From Bacteroidales bacterium (GTDB lineage: Bacteria; Bacteroidota; Bacteroidia; Bacteroidales; VadinHA17), in contig JALONT010000024.1 of the NCBI GenBank assembly GCA_025454795.1, forward strand, positions 1 through 57,067: 57,067 nucleotides of DNA, in the 5' to 3' direction. The notes under the pieces are model-generated. The model was not told the DNA's origin and did no database searches. It saw only the letters and a list, made by a program, of their open reading frames with translations. Within the stretch, counting starts at the first letter, position 1. Every line of letters starts with the position of its first letter. The position numbers and the translations under genes are program-made. Positions 1,583-57,051 of the stretch are shown here, piece after piece.

Positions 1583-1595
1583 AGAAAGTGCCTAG

Positions 1596-1680
1596 AGTAC
1601 TTAAAGTACTTAGAGTACTTAGAGTACTTAGAGTACTTAGAGTGCCTTGAGTACTTAGAGTTAGAAGACGGAAGACGGAA
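1596..1680. repeat. Composite array: AGTACTTAG 9-mers then GAAGACG 7-mers
   Basis: Seven 9-bp units related to AGTACTTAG occupy 1596-1658. AGTTAGAAG and two GAAGACG-type 7-mers follow. The junction word at 1650-1667 (agtacttagagttagaag) recurs exactly at 3044-3061, in the same orientation, on the other side of the DUF4143 ATPase gene. Confidence 0.93.
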
Positions 1681-8206: not shown

Positions 8207-8216
8207 AATCCTAAAG

Positions 8217-8250
8217 GTGAGTGGTGAGTGGTGAGTGGTGAGTGGTGAGG
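8217..8250. repeat. GTGAGTG 7-bp tandem array
   Basis: Between four and five GTGAGTG units lie 10 bases after the stop of the AMP-ligase and before the carrier-protein gene. The word is the complement of the CTCACCA units found inside the second AMP-ligase gene at 18914. Confidence 0.93.
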
Positions 8251-9743: not shown

Positions 9744-10901
9744 TTATTCGAAATAATTCAGCGTTTTGTATCCGCCCTCTTTAATATAATGCTCCTTCTT
9801 CATTAAAATCATGTCTGAAGTAACCATGTCGGCAATAAGTCCGTCGAGATCATATTCAGGAGACCAACCGAGTATCTTTCTTGCTTTTGAAGAGTCTCCA
9901 AGAAGAAAATCAACCTCTGTAGGTCTGAAATAAACAGGATCTACTTTGACGAAAACCGGATTATTCTTCATCCTGTTCTTAATATCGCTTAGGTGGGCTT
10001 CACCGACTTTTTCACAGAATAGATTTTCATCCACAGCCTTCATCACTCCAGTCTCTTCCAGATTTTCTCCGAAAAAAGCAATATCTACACCGATGAAAGC
10101 AAATGCATTCCTTATAAATTCACGAACTTCCGTAGAAATCCCGGTAGCTATGACATAATCGTCGGGTTTATCCTGCTGAAGTATAAGATACATGGCTTTT
10201 ATATAGTCCTTTGCATGGCCCCAGTCACGCCTTGAAGAAAGATTCCCCATATATAGGATATCCTGCATTCCAAGGGCTATGCGTGCAAGTGCCCTTGTTA
10301 TCTTTCGTGAAACAAAAGTTTCTCCCCTGATTGGTGATTCATGATTAAAAAGGATACCATTACTCGCATGTAATCCATAGGCTTCCCGATAGTTAACTGT
10401 AATCCAGTAACTGTACAGTTTGGCAACGGCATATGGACTTCGGGGATAGAAAGAAGTTTTTTCAGTTTGTGGTATTTCCTGAACCAGACCATAAAGTTCA
10501 GAAGTACTTGCCTGATATATTCGTGTTTTACTTATCATTCCAAGAAGTCTTACAGCTTCAAGTATCCTGAGCGTTCCAATCCCATCAGTATTAGCGGTAT
10601 ATTCAGGAATGTCAAAGCTGACTTTGACATGGCTCATTGCACCAAGGTTATAGATCTCATCTGGCTGGCTCTCCTGAATAATACGTGTAACATTCATGGA
10701 ATCACTCAGATCACCATAATGAAGAATGAGGTTTCTCTTCTCAACATGAGGATCCTGGTACAGATGATCAATCCTGTCAGTGTTCAGGAGAGAACTTCTT
10801 CTCTTAATCCCATGAACGGTATAGCCTTTCTTAATAAGAAACTCTGCAAGATATGCTCCATCCTGTCCGGTAATGCCTGTTATTAATGCTGACCTTGCCA
10901 T
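9744..10901 (-). CDS. gmd: GDP-mannose 4,6-dehydratase
   Basis: Gmd converts GDP-D-mannose to GDP-4-keto-6-deoxy-D-mannose, the first step toward GDP-L-fucose, GDP-colitose and related sugars. This extended short-chain dehydrogenase shows the cofactor loop [10 protein letters not shown] near residue 10, STSELYG, the catalytic YxxxK in [12 protein letters not shown], and the Gmd signature [17 protein letters not shown]. Its 385 residues are within range. It stands alone on the minus strand between plus-strand genes. Enzymes that could use its product (Fcl/ColC-like, histidine-type 3-dehydratase) lie at 22223-24342. Start ATG 10899-10901. Enzymes for making GDP-mannose itself are not in the window. 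Confidence 0.96.
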
Positions 10902-11392
10902 GTTGTATTTTTATAAGAATTAATATATATAATTATTTCTAATAAATATTATTTATAGTGTTTTAAGATTATATAAAATCATTAAGTTATAAGAAATTAA
11001 GGCATAAACAATAATATCCCAACAATTTCGATTCTTCTCATGACAAAAATCGAAAAAAAAATTAACAAATTTCTGCAATTTTGATGAATAGCAACATTAG
11101 TCATGCAGATGATAATACATAATTGATATACATTATATAAATTCAGATTAACAGAATTGATTTTATCAGGTTTTTGTGAAACTGAACAAAAGATATTTGC
11201 TGATAGTTATTGAAATGATTAATTTTCCGGCTTAAATAAAGAAAAATGAAAATATTTTCCATTGCTATAACAAAGGATCCGGTTTTAATCGGTGATTCCT
11301 GAATCAGGGGGACTCTGATTAGAACATGCATATTTTTCTGCCATTCTAATGGTAGTAATTAATTAACAGTATATTATTAACACGTGAAACTT
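10902..11392. other. 491-bp divergent intergenic region
   Basis: This AT-rich region separates gmd (minus) from the export/copolymerase genes (plus), so it should contain both promoters, but I could not pick a convincing -7/-33 pair. At about 11290-11325 there are overlapping small inverted repeats (GATTCCTGAATC and AATCAG...CTGATT) that could form a leader hairpin ahead of the export gene. The short minus-strand frame here does not look coding. Confidence 0.4.
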
Positions 11393-12163
11393 ATGAAAAA
11401 GACATTAAATTACAGTTCAATTAGTTTAAGTTTTGCATTAATACTGATACTGTCCTTTTCGTGTGTTCCGTATAAAGATACGACTTACTTTAACGACATA
11501 GACAATATTGAAGAACCTGTTGCAAATCCAAGGGAACAAAAAGTGATCATGCCTTTTGATAAATTATACATCAGGGTCTTAAGCACAGATCAGCAAACAG
11601 CAAATATTTTAAATTTTGCAGAAAGCAGTCAGAACAGCAGTTCCCCGGGAATGGCAGGTTACATGGTTGATGAGAAAGGGAATATAGCTTTCCCGTTCGC
11701 CGGTGAGATAAAAATTGCAGGACTTTCGCTTTCCCAGGCAGGTTCTGTTATTCAGAAAGTTCTTAGCAGTATAATCTCCAATCCTGTTGTAATTGTTAAA
11801 TTCATTGAAACTCAGGTTACTATCATGGGTGAAGTAAATAGTCAGGGGGTTTATCCAATCACCCAGGATAAGATAAATATTTATGAGGCTCTTGCCCTTG
11901 GCGGAGGGCTTACCAGGTATGGCGATCGCAGCAAAGTGATACTGATACGGCAGGAAGACAATAAACCCGTACACTACAGACTGGATCTTTCAAATTCGAA
12001 GGTTGCAGGAACAAAGCTATTTTATGTTTTACCTAATGATGTTATAATTGTAGAACCCCGAAAGAGTATTTCGGGGACCACCCAGAGTAATCTTTACTCT
12101 ACTATTCTTACAACAATTACTTCATTGTTTACAATTTTTTATATTACCCGTTACGGGCTATAA
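11393..12163 (+). CDS. Outer-membrane polysaccharide export lipoprotein (Wza/OPX family)
   Basis: This protein should form the outer-membrane exit channel for the polysaccharide. The ATG at 11393 gives a signal peptide whose lipobox LSFSC places the acylated cysteine at residue 24; a GTG at 11384 would add three residues. A Poly_export domain follows (about residues 45-130), then an SLBB-type segment (VTIMGEVNSQGVYPI...ALALGGGLTRYGDRSKVILIR). A C-terminal hydrophobic helix near residues 225-250 fits the Bacteroidota form, where the channel is completed by a helix. At 256 residues it is a compact member. The Wzc-like partner starts 23 bases downstream, the usual pairing. Confidence 0.92.
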   Translation: MKKTLNYSSISLSFALILILSFSCVPYKDTTYFNDIDNIEEPVANPREQKVIMPFDKLYIRVLSTDQQTANILNFAESSQNSSSPGMAGYMVDEKGNIAFPFAGEIKIAGLSLSQAGSVIQKVLSSIISNPVVIVKFIETQVTIMGEVNSQGVYPITQDKINIYEALALGGGLTRYGDRSKVILIRQEDNKPVHYRLDLSNSKVAGTKLFYVLPNDVIIVEPRKSISGTTQSNLYSTILTTITSLFTIFYITRYGL

Positions 12164-17847: not shown

Positions 17848-17848
17848 A

Positions 17849-18016
17849 GCGCAGAGCTCAGAGCGCAGAGCGCAGAGCACAGAGCGCAGAGCGCAGAGCG
17901 CAGAGCGCAGAGCTCAGAGCGCAGAGCGCAGAGCTCAGAGCTCAGAGCGCAGAGCGCAGAGCTCAGAGCTCAGAGCGCAGAGCGCAGAGCGCAGAGCGCA
18001 GAGCGCAGAGCGCAGA
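17849..18016. repeat. GCGCAGA 7-bp tandem array, 24 units
   Basis: Exactly 24 units fill 168 bases: mostly GCGCAGA, with GCTCAGA at units 2, 10, 13, 14, 17 and 18, and GCACAGA at unit 5. The pattern at units 11-18 is itself duplicated, as two GCGCAGA then two GCTCAGA. The array starts one base after the NAD-synthase-like stop and ends 33 bases before the four-helix-bundle gene. The open frame through it is repeat-encoded and not a gene. Confidence 0.97.
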
Positions 18017-18049
18017 GTAAAAAAGAAGAAAGAATAGAATTAATGAGAT

Positions 18050-18406
18050 ATGGAAGATTTTAGATTTGAAAATTTAGAGATCTGGAAAGAAGCGATTGAA
18101 CTCTCGGACATATTATTCGATTATGCTGATATAGCTGATAAAAAGAGATTATTTAAGTTTGCAGAGCAATTAAGGGCAGCAACTATGAGTATTTCAAATA
18201 ATATTGCTGAAGGCTCTGGTTCTTTTTCAGATAAGGAATTTGGAAATTTTCTAAATATTTCAAGAAGATCTGTCTTTGAATGTGCCAATATTCTTTTCAT
18301 TTTTGTTAGGAGAAAGGTTATTACTATGGAAGAAAAATCAAAAATATATGCTAAACTTCTGACATTAAGTAAAATGATAACCAATTTTCGTAAATCACTT
18401 GTCTAA
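18050..18406 (+). CDS. Four-helix-bundle protein (S23/Avd-like), copy 1
   Basis: This 118-residue helical protein belongs to the S23/TIGR02436 family, first known from 23S rRNA intervening sequences and related to the Avd accessory protein of diversity-generating retroelements. Recognisable family features are LEIWKEAIEL near the start, FAEQLRAATMSISNNIAEGSGS in the middle, FLNISRRSVFE, and a last basic helix. No rRNA or reverse transcriptase is nearby. It is bracketed by 7-bp arrays at 17849-18016 and 18422-18471, and the whole unit interrupts an otherwise compact plus-strand operon between the NAD-synthase-like and AMP-ligase genes. Function is unknown; nucleic-acid binding is plausible from the family. 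Confidence 0.9.
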   Translation: MEDFRFENLEIWKEAIELSDILFDYADIADKKRLFKFAEQLRAATMSISNNIAEGSGSFSDKEFGNFLNISRRSVFECANILFIFVRRKVITMEEKSKIYAKLLTLSKMITNFRKSLV

Positions 18407-18421
18407 ATTGCCAAAGCTTTA

Positions 18422-18471
18422 GGCTCAATGCTTCATGCTCTGAGCCCTGAGCCCTGCGCCCTGAGCCTATC
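18422..18471. repeat. GCCCTGA 7-bp tandem array
   Basis: About seven degenerate 7-mers (GCTCTGA, GCCCTGA, GCCCTGC, GCCCTGA and neighbours) end 4 bases before the AMP-ligase ATG. The array is open in the ligase frame, so an upstream ATG at 18428 could appear to be the start, but the protein family begins at 18476. Confidence 0.88.
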
Positions 18472-18475
18472 AACT

Positions 18476-20062
18476 ATGAATGCCTTCGATTACTTCTTTG
18501 AAAACACATCACATCTCGACAAGGATTTTCTGGTCGGCAAAGAAACGATCACTTACAAAGATCTCCACTCAACGTGCATTGACCTTGCAGCCTGGATAGA
18601 AAAAGAGGTTGGCCAGAACAAGCATATCTTACTTCTTTCAGTAAACAACTTATTTCTTCTAAAGGTCTACCTGGCAGTAATTAAGTCGGGTAATATAATT
18701 ATTCCTCTCGATCCGAATATTGAGAATGAAAACTACAGGTATATTTCAAACCTTACTAATCCAGAATTAATATTCCTTACACGAGACGTTGAGAAAAGAT
18801 TATCCGTTAACCCCGATAAATCTATCTTCCCGGACACTCCTATGGCGACCGGCAACCGGCTCCCGATAGCTATCGGGACGGCATCCGGCACAAAAAGACC
18901 TGAACTGTCTCCACTCACCACTCACCACTCACAACTCACCACTCACAACTCACTACTCACTACTCCCCACTCACAACTCACCACTCACCACTCACCACTC
19001 AATCCTGAACTCTTTCCTTTCGACAAGGAACGCTGTGCCGAAATAATCTTTACCTCCGGTTCAACAGGAAAGCCAAAAGGTGTAATGATAACACATAAAA
19101 ACCTTAAAGCAAATACAGAAACAATTATAAGCTATCTGAAGTTATCACTAGACGACAGGATGCTTGTTGTGTTGCCTTTTTATTATTGCTACGGCCTTTC
19201 ATTATTGCACACTCATTTACGTATCGGCGGCTCGATAGTGCTTAACAATTCATTTATGTTTCTTGGAACTGTAATAAACAATCTTCTCGACTACAGATGT
19301 ACAGGATTTGCCGGTGTTCCAAGTCATTTTCAGATTATCCTGAGAATGTCGGACTCCTTTAAGAAAACAAAATTCCCGGATCTGAGGTATGTTACACAGG
19401 CAGGAGGTAAGCTTGCCCCTGTTTTCATTGATGAGTTCCGGAAAAGCTTTACGGATATATTATTTTATGTAATGTATGGTCAGACAGAAGCTACTGCACG
19501 TCTTTCCTATTTACCCCCGGATCTTTATGAAAAGAAAAAAGGATCTATCGGGAGAGGTATCCCGGGTGTCGAGTTAAAGGTTGTTAATGAGAAAGGAGAA
19601 ACCGTAAAGCCAGGGGAATTGGGTGAAGTTGTAGCCTGTGGTGATAATATAATGATGGGTTATTTTGCTGATAATCAAGGCACCAGAAATGCAATACGAA
19701 ATGGCTGGTTATATACCGGCGATCTTGGGACAGTCGATGATGATGGTTTCATCTTCCTTACAGCCCGAAAATCGGAAATAATTAAAGTGGGGGGGAAACG
19801 AGTCAGTCCTAAGGAAATCGAGGATGTAATCCTTCGGATACCGGAAGTAGTTGACTGCTCAGTTGAAGGAGTTGAAGACAAGCTTCAGGGTGAAGCTCTC
19901 AGGGCGACAGTAGTATTGCGCAAGGGAACAATGAATAATATTAATGAAGAGACAATCAAACAACATTGTTCAAAACACCTTGCATTATTTAAGATCCCGA
20001 AGATTTATGAAATTAAAGATCAAATTATAATAAGTCCTACCGGGAAAAAAATTAAGAACTAA
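18476..20062 (+). CDS. AMP-dependent ligase interrupted in frame by a 7-bp array
   Basis: This ANL-superfamily ligase has P-loop IIFTSGSTGKPKG near residues 189-201, MYGQTEATARLSYLP, WLYTGDLG, the GRK-like hinge ARKSEIIKVGGKRVSP, and a C-terminal SPTGKKIKN. It probably loads the carrier protein of 14610. Between residues ~129 and ~174, just before the P-loop, it contains an 18-bp palindrome and twelve CTCACCA-type units, 84 bases that translate to a low-complexity Leu-Thr-Thr-His-Ser segment without breaking the frame. This region is a variable linker in the superfamily, so the enzyme may still fold. ATG 18476 fits the family; the upstream ATG at 18428 lies in an array. Confidence 0.88.
   Translation: MNAFDYFFENTSHLDKDFLVGKETITYKDLHSTCIDLAAWIEKEVGQNKHILLLSVNNLFLLKVYLAVIKSGNIIIPLDPNIENENYRYISNLTNPELIFLTRDVEKRLSVNPDKSIFPDTPMATGNRLPIAIGTASGTKRPELSPLTTHHSQLTTHNSLLTTPHSQLTTHHSPLNPELFPFDKERCAEIIFTSGSTGKPKGVMITHKNLKANTETIISYLKLSLDDRMLVVLPFYYCYGLSLLHTHLRIGGSIVLNNSFMFLGTVINNLLDYRCTGFAGVPSHFQIILRMSDSFKKTKFPDLRYVTQAGGKLAPVFIDEFRKSFTDILFYVMYGQTEATARLSYLPPDLYEKKKGSIGRGIPGVELKVVNEKGETVKPGELGEVVACGDNIMMGYFADNQGTRNAIRNGWLYTGDLGTVDDDGFIFLTARKSEIIKVGGKRVSPKEIEDVILRIPEVVDCSVEGVEDKLQGEALRATVVLRKGTMNNINEETIKQHCSKHLALFKIPKIYEIKDQIIISPTGKKIKN
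18861..18878. repeat. Perfect 18-bp palindrome inside the AMP-ligase gene
   Basis: TCCCGATAGCTATCGGGA is fully self-complementary and lies 35 bases before the in-frame CTCACCA array. Related GC-rich palindromes occur between genes elsewhere in the window, so its presence inside a coding region suggests insertion together with the array. Confidence 0.93.
18914..18997. repeat. CTCACCA 7-bp array, 12 units, inside a coding sequence
   Basis: Twelve units (CTCACCA, CTCACAA, CTCACTA and one CTCCCCA) make 84 bases, a multiple of three, and contribute 28 codons to the AMP-ligase. Gain or loss of units in numbers other than three would shift the frame. Confidence 0.97.
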
Positions 20063-47196: not shown

Positions 47197-47205
47197 CTGG
47201 TCAAG

Positions 47206-47450
47206 TGGTGAGTGGTGAGTCGTGAGTCGTGAGTCGTGAGTCGTGAGTCGTGAGTCGTGAGTCGTGAGTCGTGAGTCGTGAGTCGTGAGTCGTGAGTCGT
47301 GAGTCGTGAGTCGCGTGAGTCGTGAGTCGTGAGTCGTGAGTCGTGAGTCGTGTGTCGTGAGTCGTGAGTTGTGAGTCGTGTGTCGTGAGTCGTGAGTGGT
47401 GAGTAGTGAGTGGTGAGAGGTGAGTTGTGAGAGGTGAGAGGTTTGAGAGG
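47206..47450. repeat. GTGAGTC 7-bp tandem array, about 34 units
   Basis: Units are mostly GTGAGTC, with GTGAGTG, GTGAGTT, GTGTGTC and GTGAGAG variants toward the right. One unit carries a 2-base insertion (at about 47312). The array starts about 9 bases before the deacetylase ATG. All reading frames in one direction stay open, so the gene appears extended by 88 codons. Confidence 0.97.
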
Positions 47451-47454
47451 TTAG

Positions 47455-47545
47455 TCTCATTTCTCATCTCTCATCTCTCATCTCTCATCTCTCATCTCTC
47501 ATCTCTCATCTCTCATCTCTCATTTCTCATCTCTCATTTCTCATC
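47455..47545. repeat. TCTCATC 7-bp tandem array, 13 units
   Basis: Thirteen units (TCTCATC with some TCTCATT) directly follow the GTGAGTC array in the opposite sense. The last 12 bases of the oxidoreductase gene, including its stop at 47534-47536, lie within it, so the array encodes that protein's terminal Arg-Asp-Glu-Lys. Confidence 0.97.
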
Positions 47546-48856
47546 TCTTAAAATTTCTTTCAGCTTTGTTTCAGCAACCTGCACAGTTTCGTTTACATTC
47601 AGGGTACCGTTAATTATCTGGGCAGAATTAATTATATAATACCCTTTTAAAGAGGTAGTTACAGAAGGAAGTTTTGCAGAGTAATTTAAGGTTGGAATCG
47701 CAAACACTCTCCTTGCTGAGGATACATTCCATGAGATAATATCACTTTCTGATAAATCCGGGTACATTTTGAAAAGAGCACCCAGGAAATATTCTCTTAT
47801 TTCATCATCTTTTTGGTTGAATAGTTCATTTCCCGGTTCTATATATTTCGGCAGATAAACAAGACTCCTGTTGCCCAATTCCCTGGTATCGACCAGCGCC
47901 GTCATCTCTATAATTCCGGTAAAAGGAGGCCAGGAATCAGTAATATTTGTAACATAATATTTTGAAACGGGCCGACTAAGCAAAATAGATGGACAAATAA
48001 CACCGAGATACCTGATAGAATTGTGCCTCTCAATCTCTTCTACGGATAAGGCGGATACAATCTTCACTGAAATATCCGAGGGAAGCGTGGATATTACTTC
48101 TTCAAAAATATATTCTTCAGAGGATAAAGTTGCAACTTTCATCCTGCCAGATGGATCTATAACAACCTGTTTTACAGGAACATTTAAAATTATTGCTACT
48201 CCCTCGCTTCTGAGTTTCTCTTCAAAAGCTGAATTGATCTTTTCATAGCCCCCTGTTACATATCCGAACATCTCTTTTTTCAATCCTGTCTTTCGGGCAG
48301 CATACATTCTCTGAATGGTTGTCCAGATAAAAGATGCTGAAGTTATTTTATAATGATCTCCCAGTTTGGATTTAAGTAAAGGAAGCCATATCTTTTGGAA
48401 TACTTTTTTCCCTGACCACTTCACAAGCCATTTTTCAACTGGAATAGCCTCCATTCTCTTCAAGTCTTTGATAAGGGAAGCCGCAATAATTGTCAGGCCA
48501 AGCCTTAACTTATCAAATAAATTAATTGGAGGAAATTTCAAAAACTCGAAAATATTTGACATCGAATACAATTTCCCGCCGGAATAGAATCCAGTTTTGG
48601 TTTCGACCCATTTCAATTCACTTTCGAGACCAATTTCCTTTATTATTCTTCTGGTGTTTAAATCAGATAATAATATAACATGATAAAAACGATCCCATTT
48701 AATTCCATCCATATCTATAGCGGAGGTTAGCCCACCCAGTTTCGGGGCAGACTCCAGTATTGTTACTCTATCTCCTTTCTGAGCAAGACGCAGGGCAAGT
48801 GTCATTCCCATTATACCACCGCCGATAATGCCCCAGGTTTTTTGGGGAGTTGTCAT
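47534..48856 (-). CDS. FAD/NAD(P)-dependent oxidoreductase, amine-oxidase fold
   Basis: This flavoprotein of 440 residues starts at ATG 48854-48856 ([17 protein letters not shown]). The dinucleotide-binding motif [24 protein letters not shown] is at residues 10-33. [25 protein letters not shown] follows, as in protoporphyrinogen-oxidase and UDP-galactopyranose-mutase-like enzymes found in glycan loci. A reaction on a sugar or lipid-linked intermediate is likely but unproven. A further 67 codons to 49057 are open but derive from an array and are excluded. The last codons fall in another 7-bp array. Confidence 0.82.
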
Positions 48857-48897: not shown

Positions 48898-49055
48898 AGC
48901 GGAGAGCGGAGAGAGGTGAGTTGTGAGCGGTGAGAGGTGAGTGATGAGTTGTGAGTTGTGAGTTGTGAGTTGTGAGTTGTGAGTTGTGAGTGATGAGTTG
49001 TGAGTTGTGAGCGGTGAGAGGTGAGTTGTGAGCGGTGAGATTTGAGTGGTGAGTC
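48898..49055. repeat. GTGAGTT 7-bp tandem array, about 21 units
   Basis: Units are mainly GTGAGTT, with GTGAGCG, GTGAGAG and ATGAGTT variants. A block of GTGAGCG-GTGAGAG-GTGAGTx appears near both ends, which implies duplication of multi-unit blocks. The array lies between the four-helix-bundle gene (stop 49061) and the oxidoreductase start. Confidence 0.96.
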
Positions 49056-49460: not shown

Positions 49461-49529
49461 TTTGCTTTACGCTTTACGCTATGTTTTACGTTCTGCGCTC
49501 TACGTTCTACGTTCTACGCTTTGCGCTTC
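49461..49529. repeat. TACGCTT/TACGTTC 7-bp tandem array
   Basis: About ten degenerate units run from 49461 to 49529. In the sense of the neighbouring minus-strand four-helix-bundle gene they read AGCGCAA, AGCGTAG, AACGTAG, AGCGCAG, closely like the AGCGCAG units upstream of the copy at 18050. The array encodes the last nine or so residues of the dehydrogenase, including its stop at 49500-49502. Confidence 0.92.
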
Positions 49530-56641: not shown

Positions 56642-56649
56642 TTCATTAT

Positions 56650-56685
56650 AGTACTTCGAGTACTTCGAGTACTTAAAGTACTTAG
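56650..56685. repeat. AGTACTTCG/AGTACTTAG 9-bp tandem array, 4 units
   Basis: Four units (AGTACTTCG twice, AGTACTTAA, AGTACTTAG) occupy the gap between the third four-helix-bundle gene and the start of the OmpA-family gene. The same word forms the arrays at 1596 and 3033. Confidence 0.94.
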
Positions 56686-56691
56686 AGTTTA

Positions 56692-57051
56692 TTAAGTTTT
56701 TAATTTATTGCCGATTGAAGTAAAAATTGCCAGTAGTTCGTCAGCTTCCTTAATTCGAGGTTCAACCATATTTGGTTCAAGCCATTCCAGATCGTTAATG
56801 ATCTCCAACCAGTATATTGTTTCGTTTGATTCGCTTTCACAAATTTTAATTTTGTTTATAAAATCTGCCTTGCTTCTTGATCGGTTTGCTTCGCGATAAT
56901 TAGCCCCGATACTTGTCCCAGCCTTTGTTATCTGATTTCTAATTACCTTCCCTTCAGGTGTATTCGGCAGCGAAATAGACAGCTTTATTATGCTTATCGC
57001 AAATTTCTTTGTCCTGATCTCTAATTGTTTACTGAACTCCTTATTATCCAT
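56692..57051 (-). CDS. Four-helix-bundle protein (S23/Avd-like), copy 3
   Basis: This 119-residue helical protein starts at ATG 57049-57051 (MDNKEFSKQL); a TTG at 57058-57060 would add three residues. Family features are LEIRTKKFAISIIKLSISLPN, IRNQITKAGTSIGANYREANRSRSKADFINKIKICESESNETIYWLEI (the strongly conserved central helices) and a last helix ELLAIFTSIGNKLKT. This is the subgroup most common in Bacteroidota. The 3' side is bordered by a 9-bp array; the few bases beyond its start (ending CTCTAAG, complement of CTTAGAG) look like the beginning of another array cut off by the window edge. Function unknown. Confidence 0.93.
   Translation of the reverse strand: MDNKEFSKQLEIRTKKFAISIIKLSISLPNTPEGKVIRNQITKAGTSIGANYREANRSRSKADFINKIKICESESNETIYWLEIINDLEWLEPNMVEPRIKEADELLAIFTSIGNKLKT

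Follow-up and report, generated by a model that had tools for sequence, protein, structure and literature searches.

The locus studied here raises the question of why a gene of the S23 family (PF05635), encoding a predicted four-helix-bundle protein, is bracketed by two arrays of short tandem repeats between a NAD synthase gene and an AMP-binding ligase gene, and whether gene and arrays belong together. The original prediction, made from the letters of the window (the whole stretch of DNA analysed, 57,067 bp, which is contig 35 of a 3.29 Mb genome), described this arrangement, saw it recur at two further places and proposed that gene and arrays move or persist as one unit. The genome holds ten PF05635 matches in total, three of them in the window, and a PF05635 match is present in 35 of the 41 genomes of the relatives search, this genome counted.

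S23 cassettes of the window

All three S23 genes of the window score above the curated profile cut-offs (PF05635 and TIGR02436; 3/3), and the features are collected in Table 1. TRF and the profile searches agreed with the predicted succession of array, S23-like gene and array between the NAD synthase and AMP-ligase genes (cassette 1), the downstream array being short with 4 units, and arrays and S23 genes were also found at cassette 2 and, in part, at cassette 3, which is cut by the contig end. Cassettes 1 and 2 carry 7-bp arrays on both sides of the gene; cassette 3 has a 9-bp array downstream, and its upstream arm, if any, is out of view, as only 16 nt separate the start codon from the end of the contig. 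The upstream arm of cassette 1 begins directly 3' of the NAD-synthase stop codon, and the start of the ligase was taken as 18476. The CTGAGCC units downstream are the reverse complement of the upstream unit type, and the two arms align in inverted orientation over 30 bp with a score of 40. In cassette 2 the inverted match is 17 bp long with a score of 19, which is within the control range; of the two cassettes that can be viewed on either side, cassette 1 alone thus has clearly inverted arms. S23 is the sole gene between the arms in cassettes 1 and 2, with no nuclease or recombinase inside the unit. The cassette 2 protein also matches bAvd (PF22296) with 40.8 bits against a cut-off of 40, a margin of 0.8 bits, and its eight closest named relatives are from Bacteroidales MAGs (L199-L206), which makes a host among the Bacteroidales probable. 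Examples of S23 lineages are those of cassette 1, of the GTCTTGCA unit and of a Nostoc plasmid. Several S23 genes adjoin contig ends (G004:C155 2639-2953 of 3072, G002:C322 5-313, G006:C224 73-384 and 56692-57067 of the window), perhaps because the arrays break short-read assembly.

Table 1. Positions in the window of the S23 genes, their arms and the arrays away from S23 genes
Feature	Position	Strand	Basis and details
Upstream arm, cassette 1	17848..18017	+	TRF: 24.3 copies of AGCGCAG, score 291
S23 / four-helix-bundle gene, cassette 1, 118 aa	18050..18406	+	PF05635 87.5 bits (cut-off 33.8), TIGR02436 82.2 bits
Downstream arm, cassette 1	18437..18467	+	CTGAGCC units; TRF 4.0 copies at 18440-18467, score 49; alignment
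Downstream arm, cassette 2	48904..49054	-	TRF: AACTCAC-type units on gene strand, ~20 copies
S23 / four-helix-bundle gene, cassette 2, 124 aa	49061..49435	-	Profile search
Upstream arm, cassette 2	49479..49527	-	GAGCGCAGAACGTA, 7-bp based; TRF
Downstream arm, cassette 3	56646..56688	-	9-bp unit GTACTCTAA; TRF
S23 gene, cassette 3	56692..57051	-	PF05635 71.8 bits; start codon located
S23-less array, unit TAGAGTACT	1593..1661	.	TRF; best match S23-linked arms of L091
S23-less array, unit GGTGAGT	8216..8249	.	TRF; best match cassette 2 arms
S23-less array in AMP-ligase CDS, unit CCACTCA	18911..19001	.	TRF; best match cassette 2 arms
Two adjoining S23-less arrays, AGTCGTG x32 and TCTCATC x13	47204..47548	.	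TRF

Tandem arrays are enriched around S23 genes

The comparison was extended to 120 stretches around S23 matches which, together with the window, amount to 1.35 Mb. From 127 HMM matches, some of them broken, merged or end-truncated, 120 S23 genes were called, and the control genes came from the S23 stretches themselves and from 14 stretches of the same genome as the window. Two samples were used, namely 108 S23 genes for arrays of period 4-12, and 105 that lie at least 300 bp from the stretch ends for arrays of period 6-10. The prediction had called for a comparison with length-matched genes, and this comparison bore it out: arrays of period 6-10 within 150 bp were present on both sides of 36/105 S23 genes and of 0/132 ORFs of 240-480 bp (Fisher p = 3e-15). 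By the same criterion, 6/544 other genes had arrays on both sides after the neighbours of S23 genes had been removed. For period 4-12 within 150 bp, the 108 S23 genes divided into 39 with arrays on both sides, 26 upstream only, 22 downstream only and 21 with none, as compared to 30, 98, 110 and 662, respectively, among 900 other genes, S23 neighbours included. The array excess at S23 genes persisted in all six bins when gaps were matched by length; for example, in gaps of 60-120 bp the counts were 39/59 for S23 and 18/145 for controls. The array-flanked S23 gene is a real and general pattern.

A coincidence might be suspected in which heptamer microsatellites slip into any spacer and S23 genes merely occupy spacers, and 158 of the 310 arrays of period 6-10 do occur away from S23 genes. 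The controls matched by gap length and by gene length speak against it, as do the two properties of the arms described in the following sections.

At many S23 loci the arms mirror one another

The likeness of the arms was measured by aligning the 250 bp upstream of each gene to the reverse complement of the 250 bp downstream, with the threshold set at the 99th percentile of 2000 cross-locus pairs, at 113 S23 loci with flanks of at least 150 bp. Inverted arms above this threshold were found at 61/113 S23 loci and at 5/719 other genes, as compared to 11/113 and 16/719 for likeness in direct orientation; at three loci (L121, L062 and L043) the direct score exceeds the inverted one. Complementary ends around an ORF, which are a trait of the rRNA intervening sequences (IVS), are therefore present at those 61 loci, cassette 1 among them and cassette 2 not. 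Mirrored pairs such as AGATAAA / TTATCTT can be read from the listed units. An inverted score of at least 36 was reached at 57/105 S23 genes and at 2/132 length-matched ORFs, which again argues against coincidence. In a separate count, the period was common to both arms in 54 of 57 loci. The arms within one locus are closer to each other than to arms of the same lineage elsewhere, with mean scores of 38.3 and 22.9 (33 higher and 6 lower of 40, p = 1e-6).

Such arms could pair in a transcript. The cassettes might then be IVS-like RNA elements, in which RNase III would cut the paired stem so that the S23 piece leaves the operon mRNA, and the RNA stem would be what is selected. The complementary arms around the ORF would suit this, as would the sense orientation of S23 (57 sense and 10 antisense in co-directional gaps) and the folding of cassette 1, which beats 20 shuffles with z = -4.8. 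A precedent is the Coxiella IVS, whose 28-bp terminal stem is cut by RNase III according to the available text of PMC4990558. On the other hand, the arm mismatches at 71 loci comprise 128 transitions that G-U pairing tolerates and 131 that it does not, and there is hence no wobble bias and no sign of selection on RNA pairing; a selection for RNA wobble was rejected on these counts. The absence of a G-U bias suggests that the likeness of the arms is one of DNA copies. No rRNA was found in the 41 sources searched, and a cut inside an operon mRNA would part the host genes. We consider this RNA explanation quite improbable.

The repeat unit follows the S23 lineage

The repeat units were compared with the proteins at 102 S23 loci with an array and intact length, in 5046 pairs without detected flank homology, 105 pairs having been removed. 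Among pairs with a protein similarity (P) of at least 0.6, 47.4% of 154 had an array score of at least 30, and this fell to 9.2% of 120 at P 0.45-0.6 and to 0.2% of 2548 at P below 0.15. In the opposite orientation the figures were 7.8% for the most similar S23 pairs and 0.5% for the least similar. None of 500 Mantel permutations matched the association of array and S23 similarity. The relation of unit and protein is thus confined to near relatives, with an overall Spearman coefficient of only 0.16. The period of the arrays also clustered on the tree of 114 S23 proteins, where periods 7, 8 and 9 changed 20, 21 and 10 times as compared to 35.3, 30.2 and 14.3 times on shuffling, and for none of the three periods did any of the 500 shuffles give so low a number; 20 of the 114 rows of this tree carry no 7/8/9 label, and its support is limited by 124 columns.

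A second set, drawn from named genomes, comprised 80 loci of one S23 sublineage, 68 of them with arrays and from 13 named phyla, and 21 flank-homologous pairs were removed. Here again 0 of 500 Mantel permutations matched, with a Spearman coefficient of 0.31 over the 68 loci. Leaving out two loci of unknown phylum, an array score of at least 30 was found in 15/59 pairs from different phyla at P of at least 0.65 and in 0/205 at P 0.35-0.45, and the corresponding counts within a phylum were 38/136 and 0/30. Unit and orientation are thus common to similar S23 proteins at unrelated sites, even across phyla. Together with the matched controls, these lineage-specific units across phyla refute coincidence as a full explanation, and we give it next to no chance.

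The S23 protein is under purifying selection, with a median dN/dS of 0.13 (0.06-0.27) in the 41 of 183 pairs that were usable (dS below 2). The common units could in principle be leftover homology, if S23 genes and arrays only travelled together in larger transferred segments and nothing recognised the repeat, and common units do go with common S23 ancestry. The similarity nevertheless remains after removal of the flank-homologous pairs (105 and 21, respectively), and 23 of the 25 lowest-dS pairs listed, 9 of the 25 with homologous flanks, have dS above 1, at which unselected spacer DNA should be unrecognisable, yet unit and orientation persist. The likeness of units at such a distance points to upkeep rather than to leftover homology, and co-inheritance as the whole explanation is very improbable. 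Our results show that gene and arrays are inherited together as one unit, whose repeats are specific to the lineage.

Contents of intergenic sites in relatives

The prediction had also proposed to compare strains for empty and filled sites, and both states were found, between species rather than between strains. The gap between NAD synthase and AMP ligase measures 12 nt in genome G014 (L166) and 628 nt in the window, and at the same junction genome G001 holds a different S23 (38% over 73 aa), flanked by arrays of 8 bp. A further junction is occupied in L108 by a cassette whose S23 belongs to the GAGGGA lineage (10868-11242) and in L041, from the same genome as the window, by an S23-less inverted pair (11487-11636) whose units are similar to those of L108 (score 25, best of 200 shuffles 21); neither array nor pair is present at this junction in L079 and L141. 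The two versions in L108 and L041 would lend themselves to locating the ends of the element. L041 and L079 also have a junction in common at which each carries an S23 cassette, the lineage being different in the two. An S23 cassette in one relative and a solo array of a different family in the other were seen for L121 as compared to L056 and L075, and for L071 as compared to L110, although these pairings are less sure because one flanking gene is only 44-60% identical. The neighbour gene at the cassette 2 site has one other match, in G030, among 26 genomes. The states seen at intergenic sites are thus empty, solo array, S23-less inverted pair, and S23 cassette of one or another lineage, in relatives that are too divergent for base-level boundaries of the element. 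The nearest relative with P of at least 0.6 lay in the same genome for 11/93 S23 proteins and at another site of another genome for 68/93, and with only 11/93 of the former kind transposition bursts are not seen.

Arrays away from S23 genes

Among the 158 S23-less arrays of period 6-10, 22 have an inverted partner within 150 bp, where 0.2 were expected. In 380 kb of the genome of the window, 36 S23-less arrays were compared with S23-linked arrays elsewhere and gave a median best score of 46.5 against 25 for shuffled units, although only 12 of the 36 score above the 95th percentile obtained with shuffled units. A preference of S23-less arrays for the S23-linked arrays of the genome in which they lie was not seen (mean percentile 0.56, p = 0.16, in 96 of the 158).

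Some single observations may be recorded here. The CCACTCA array in the AMP ligase has 13 copies and is read through, and the homologs in G001 (L162) and G014 (L166) are without such a stretch in the sequence listed; just ahead of this array, at 18862-18877, stands the palindrome CCCGATAGCTATCGGG, as if two unrelated repeat elements had hit one spot. Two S23-less gaps (L082 3060-3405 and L083 4296-4594) have in common a hairpin-like sequence resembling CCCCCCTTCAGGGGGGCAGGGGGGC, which is a second repeat family in the genus.

The scattered arrays invite an operator model, in which S23 would be a ring-shaped RNA- or DNA-binding regulator like TRAP, the arrays beside the gene would serve autoregulation, the scattered arrays would form a regulon, and nothing would be mobile. 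TRAP is a ring that binds tandem units. Lineage-matched units of fixed period, upstream arms with many purines when the coding strand is read (A 0.31, G 0.32), sense orientation within operons and purifying selection are what such a model would lead one to expect, and the TAACTGA heptamers of Beggiatoaceae stand mostly just before start codons in the accessible part of PMC4679880. It accounts less well for the presence of the unit in both arms and in inverted orientation, since an operator in a 5' leader needs neither. Moreover, S23-less arrays have no gap-type bias, their density in divergent gaps (14 in 119) being no higher than where the neighbouring genes converge (13 in 116) or run in one direction (75 in 657), and the contents of the gaps vary between relatives. 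We therefore regard the operator model as unlikely on our reading of these points.

Distribution across bacteria

An S23 match at E of at most 1e-20 was present in 193 of the 296 genomes sampled across the phylum. Inverted scores of at least 30 were found at 11 of the 30 best-scoring S23 loci of this sample (1.7% of cross-locus pairs) and at 51/78 named loci of the set with other phyla (3.8% cross-locus; 78 of 80 usable). In the genomes of ten named records, of which 28/30 loci were used, the same score was reached at 7/11 cyanobacterial and 9/17 Bacteroidota loci (1.5% cross-locus); six of these loci, four of them cyanobacterial, are also in the 78-locus set, and 4/7 and 8/15, respectively, pass when the overlap is removed. 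Plasmid loci behaved alike, with 6 of the 10 fetched reaching this score (10 of the 35 plasmid records with a match), and as the pattern is present on complete Nostoc and Tolypothrix plasmids (L317, L319 and L324), draft assembly does not account for it. At 3/10 plasmid loci (L319, L324 and L325) S23 is followed directly by a gene for a tyrosine recombinase or integrase, a possible mobility partner. Phage carriage was considered for the cassette 2 lineage only and was not seen: the cassette 2 protein had no match in 50,697 phage records, and a six-sequence alignment of its lineage had none in viral contigs.

Discussion

Enrichment, site states, inverted arms and lineage-specific units all support the proposal that an S23 gene and its arrays form one unit, and this unit may move as a whole. 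The inverted arms, the unit that follows the protein lineage, and the solo and S23-less paired repeats go beyond what had been proposed. The tie to rRNA IVS made in the original prediction holds by protein family and architecture and fails by location in the 41 sources covered: searches of the window (no Rfam match at all) and of two sets of 20 S23 loci, the second of which gave two tRNAs only, yielded no match to rRNA.

The rRNA IVS of Leptospira, Coxiella and Salmonella encode a protein of the same family, PF05635, in an ORF between inverted terminal repeats, and a mobile or selfish nature has been proposed for IVS (PMC4990558, in the part available). As compared to them, the cassettes described here end in tandem arrays of 7-9 bp, occur in several lineages per genome and have a unit that goes with the lineage of the protein; in addition there are solo arrays and inverted pairs without S23. 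In organisation they resemble REPIN/RAYT systems. In these, copies of REP flank the RAYT gene. The available text of PMC3116915 describes repeats that occur singly and as inverted doublets, and a gene that is tied to a repeat family of its own; in our data singlets and inverted doublets likewise occur away from the gene and the repeat family is specific to the gene lineage, with S23-less arrays showing no preference for their own genome. The difference lies in the protein and the repeat, which are a Y1 (HUH) transposase and single palindromes in REPIN/RAYT, and S23 with no known catalytic domain and tandem arrays here. No Y1 match was found among the cassette genes of the window, and Y1/RAYT was rejected as the partner of the arrays in this genome, whose five Y1 genes have no array of period 6-10 within 300 bp. 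At one locus (L285 2692-2954), a 37-copy GCCGCAC array lies about 850 bp from a Y1 transposase gene.

The accessory protein Avd of DGRs belongs to a family related to S23 (PMC10053308, in the part available), and the cassette 2 protein is below the NCBIfam cut-off for Avd (31.8 against 80 bits). In this genome, the profile search led us to reject a reverse transcriptase on the contigs that carry S23: PF00078 matches lie only on contigs 79 and 85, and S23 is on contigs 25, 32, 35, 40, 42, 58 and 77. The two matches (G000:C79:63-512 and G000:C85:65-265) are contig-end fragments covering RVT_1 1-145 and 145-205 and are perhaps one retroelement gene split by the assembly. By protein and ends the S23 units are a variant of the IVS, by organisation they are REPIN/RAYT-like, and by the features tested they are neither.

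Arrays of 7-bp units, likewise mostly intergenic, have been described from several bacteria, such as GGGAATC in Xanthomonas, GGGGA(C/T)T in Nostoc and heptanucleotides in Calothrix (PMC4692102), and TAACTGA in Beggiatoaceae (PMC4679880), as given in the available text of these papers. Those of Xanthomonas also occur as inverted pairs (PMC4692102), and Xanthomonas campestris has an S23 protein, Xcc0516 (PMC4990558), both statements being from the accessible parts of these sources. In those parts the heptamer papers make no link to S23: the terms 's23' and 'four helix' occur zero times in PMC4679880, as do 'four helix' and 'xcc0516' in PMC4692102. The text available of PMC10910872 names the S23 family a single time, in the legend of a figure that deals with CRISPR associations. 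Inverted ends and a proposed mobile origin are topics of the IVS literature, solo and inverted arrays of the heptamer literature; in the open-licence PMC literature, so far as its text was accessible, we found neither a report of arrays flanking S23 genes nor a link that joins IVS or S23 with heptamer arrays.

These results suggest a single unit, selfish or regulatory, that consists of the protein and its repeats. As an explanation of the whole, we give a little better than an even chance to a single genetic element with the order array, S23 gene, inverted array, whose protein would recognise its own repeat and which would spread. Points against this reading are that 21/108 S23 genes have no array within 150 bp, that 52/113 loci are below the inverted-arm threshold, that the arms of cassette 2 are not convincingly inverted, that a direct likeness of the arms passes at 11/113 S23 loci, and that only 11/30 loci pass in the phylum sample. 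The scarcity of close S23 relatives within one genome (11/93), the lack of an own-genome preference among S23-less arrays and the 12 of 36 such arrays above the shuffled-unit level also speak against it. The S23 sequence profile matches the solved structures 2rld and 2gsc, and the S23 protein of Xanthomonas is a toroidal homopentamer (PMC4990558, in the part available). If the proteins studied here resemble this solved relative, S23 would bind the unit of its own lineage, several units at once along the array. Binding of this kind would account for the constancy of the period and also for a sequence that is specific to the lineage. By a rough estimate, a path of 7-9 nt per subunit would fit a ring of the size of S23, an argument from geometry that draws on the pentamer of the solved relative. 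Recognition of its own repeat by S23, and the mobility of the element, are probable in so far as this single-element explanation is.

The element would spread into intergenic spacers by means of its inverted, hairpin-capable ends, presumably through enzymes of the host or of other elements, because no catalytic domain is known in S23. Solo arrays and S23-less pairs may be remnants of the element or non-autonomous forms derived from it, and would then correspond to the REPs and REPINs of RAYTs. Insertion in sense orientation into operons would lead to co-transcription with the host operon, and the S23-bearing rRNA intervening sequences would be a special case that landed in 23S rRNA. More tentatively, and with somewhat less than an even chance in our view, the cassettes may represent a pan-bacterial class in which a ring protein without a known catalytic domain specifies its own repeat of 7-9 bp, one unit per subunit, the protein lineage and the repeat co-evolving by a recognition code that could be read; many heptameric arrays that so far lack an explanation in Bacteroidota, in cyanobacteria and possibly in xanthomonads would then be its solo and paired derivatives, and the S23-bearing rRNA IVS would be members that landed in rRNA.

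S23 proteins 'have no known function' (PMC4990558), and of heptameric arrays it was written that 'a potential functional role ... remains to be elucidated' (PMC4692102), in the parts of both papers available. The link between S23 and arrays gives each of these two puzzles a partner. The lineages are many and differ in their unit, and they would offer a natural panel on which to probe the specificity of a ring that binds DNA or RNA; the link could also bear on the origin of the rRNA intervening sequences.
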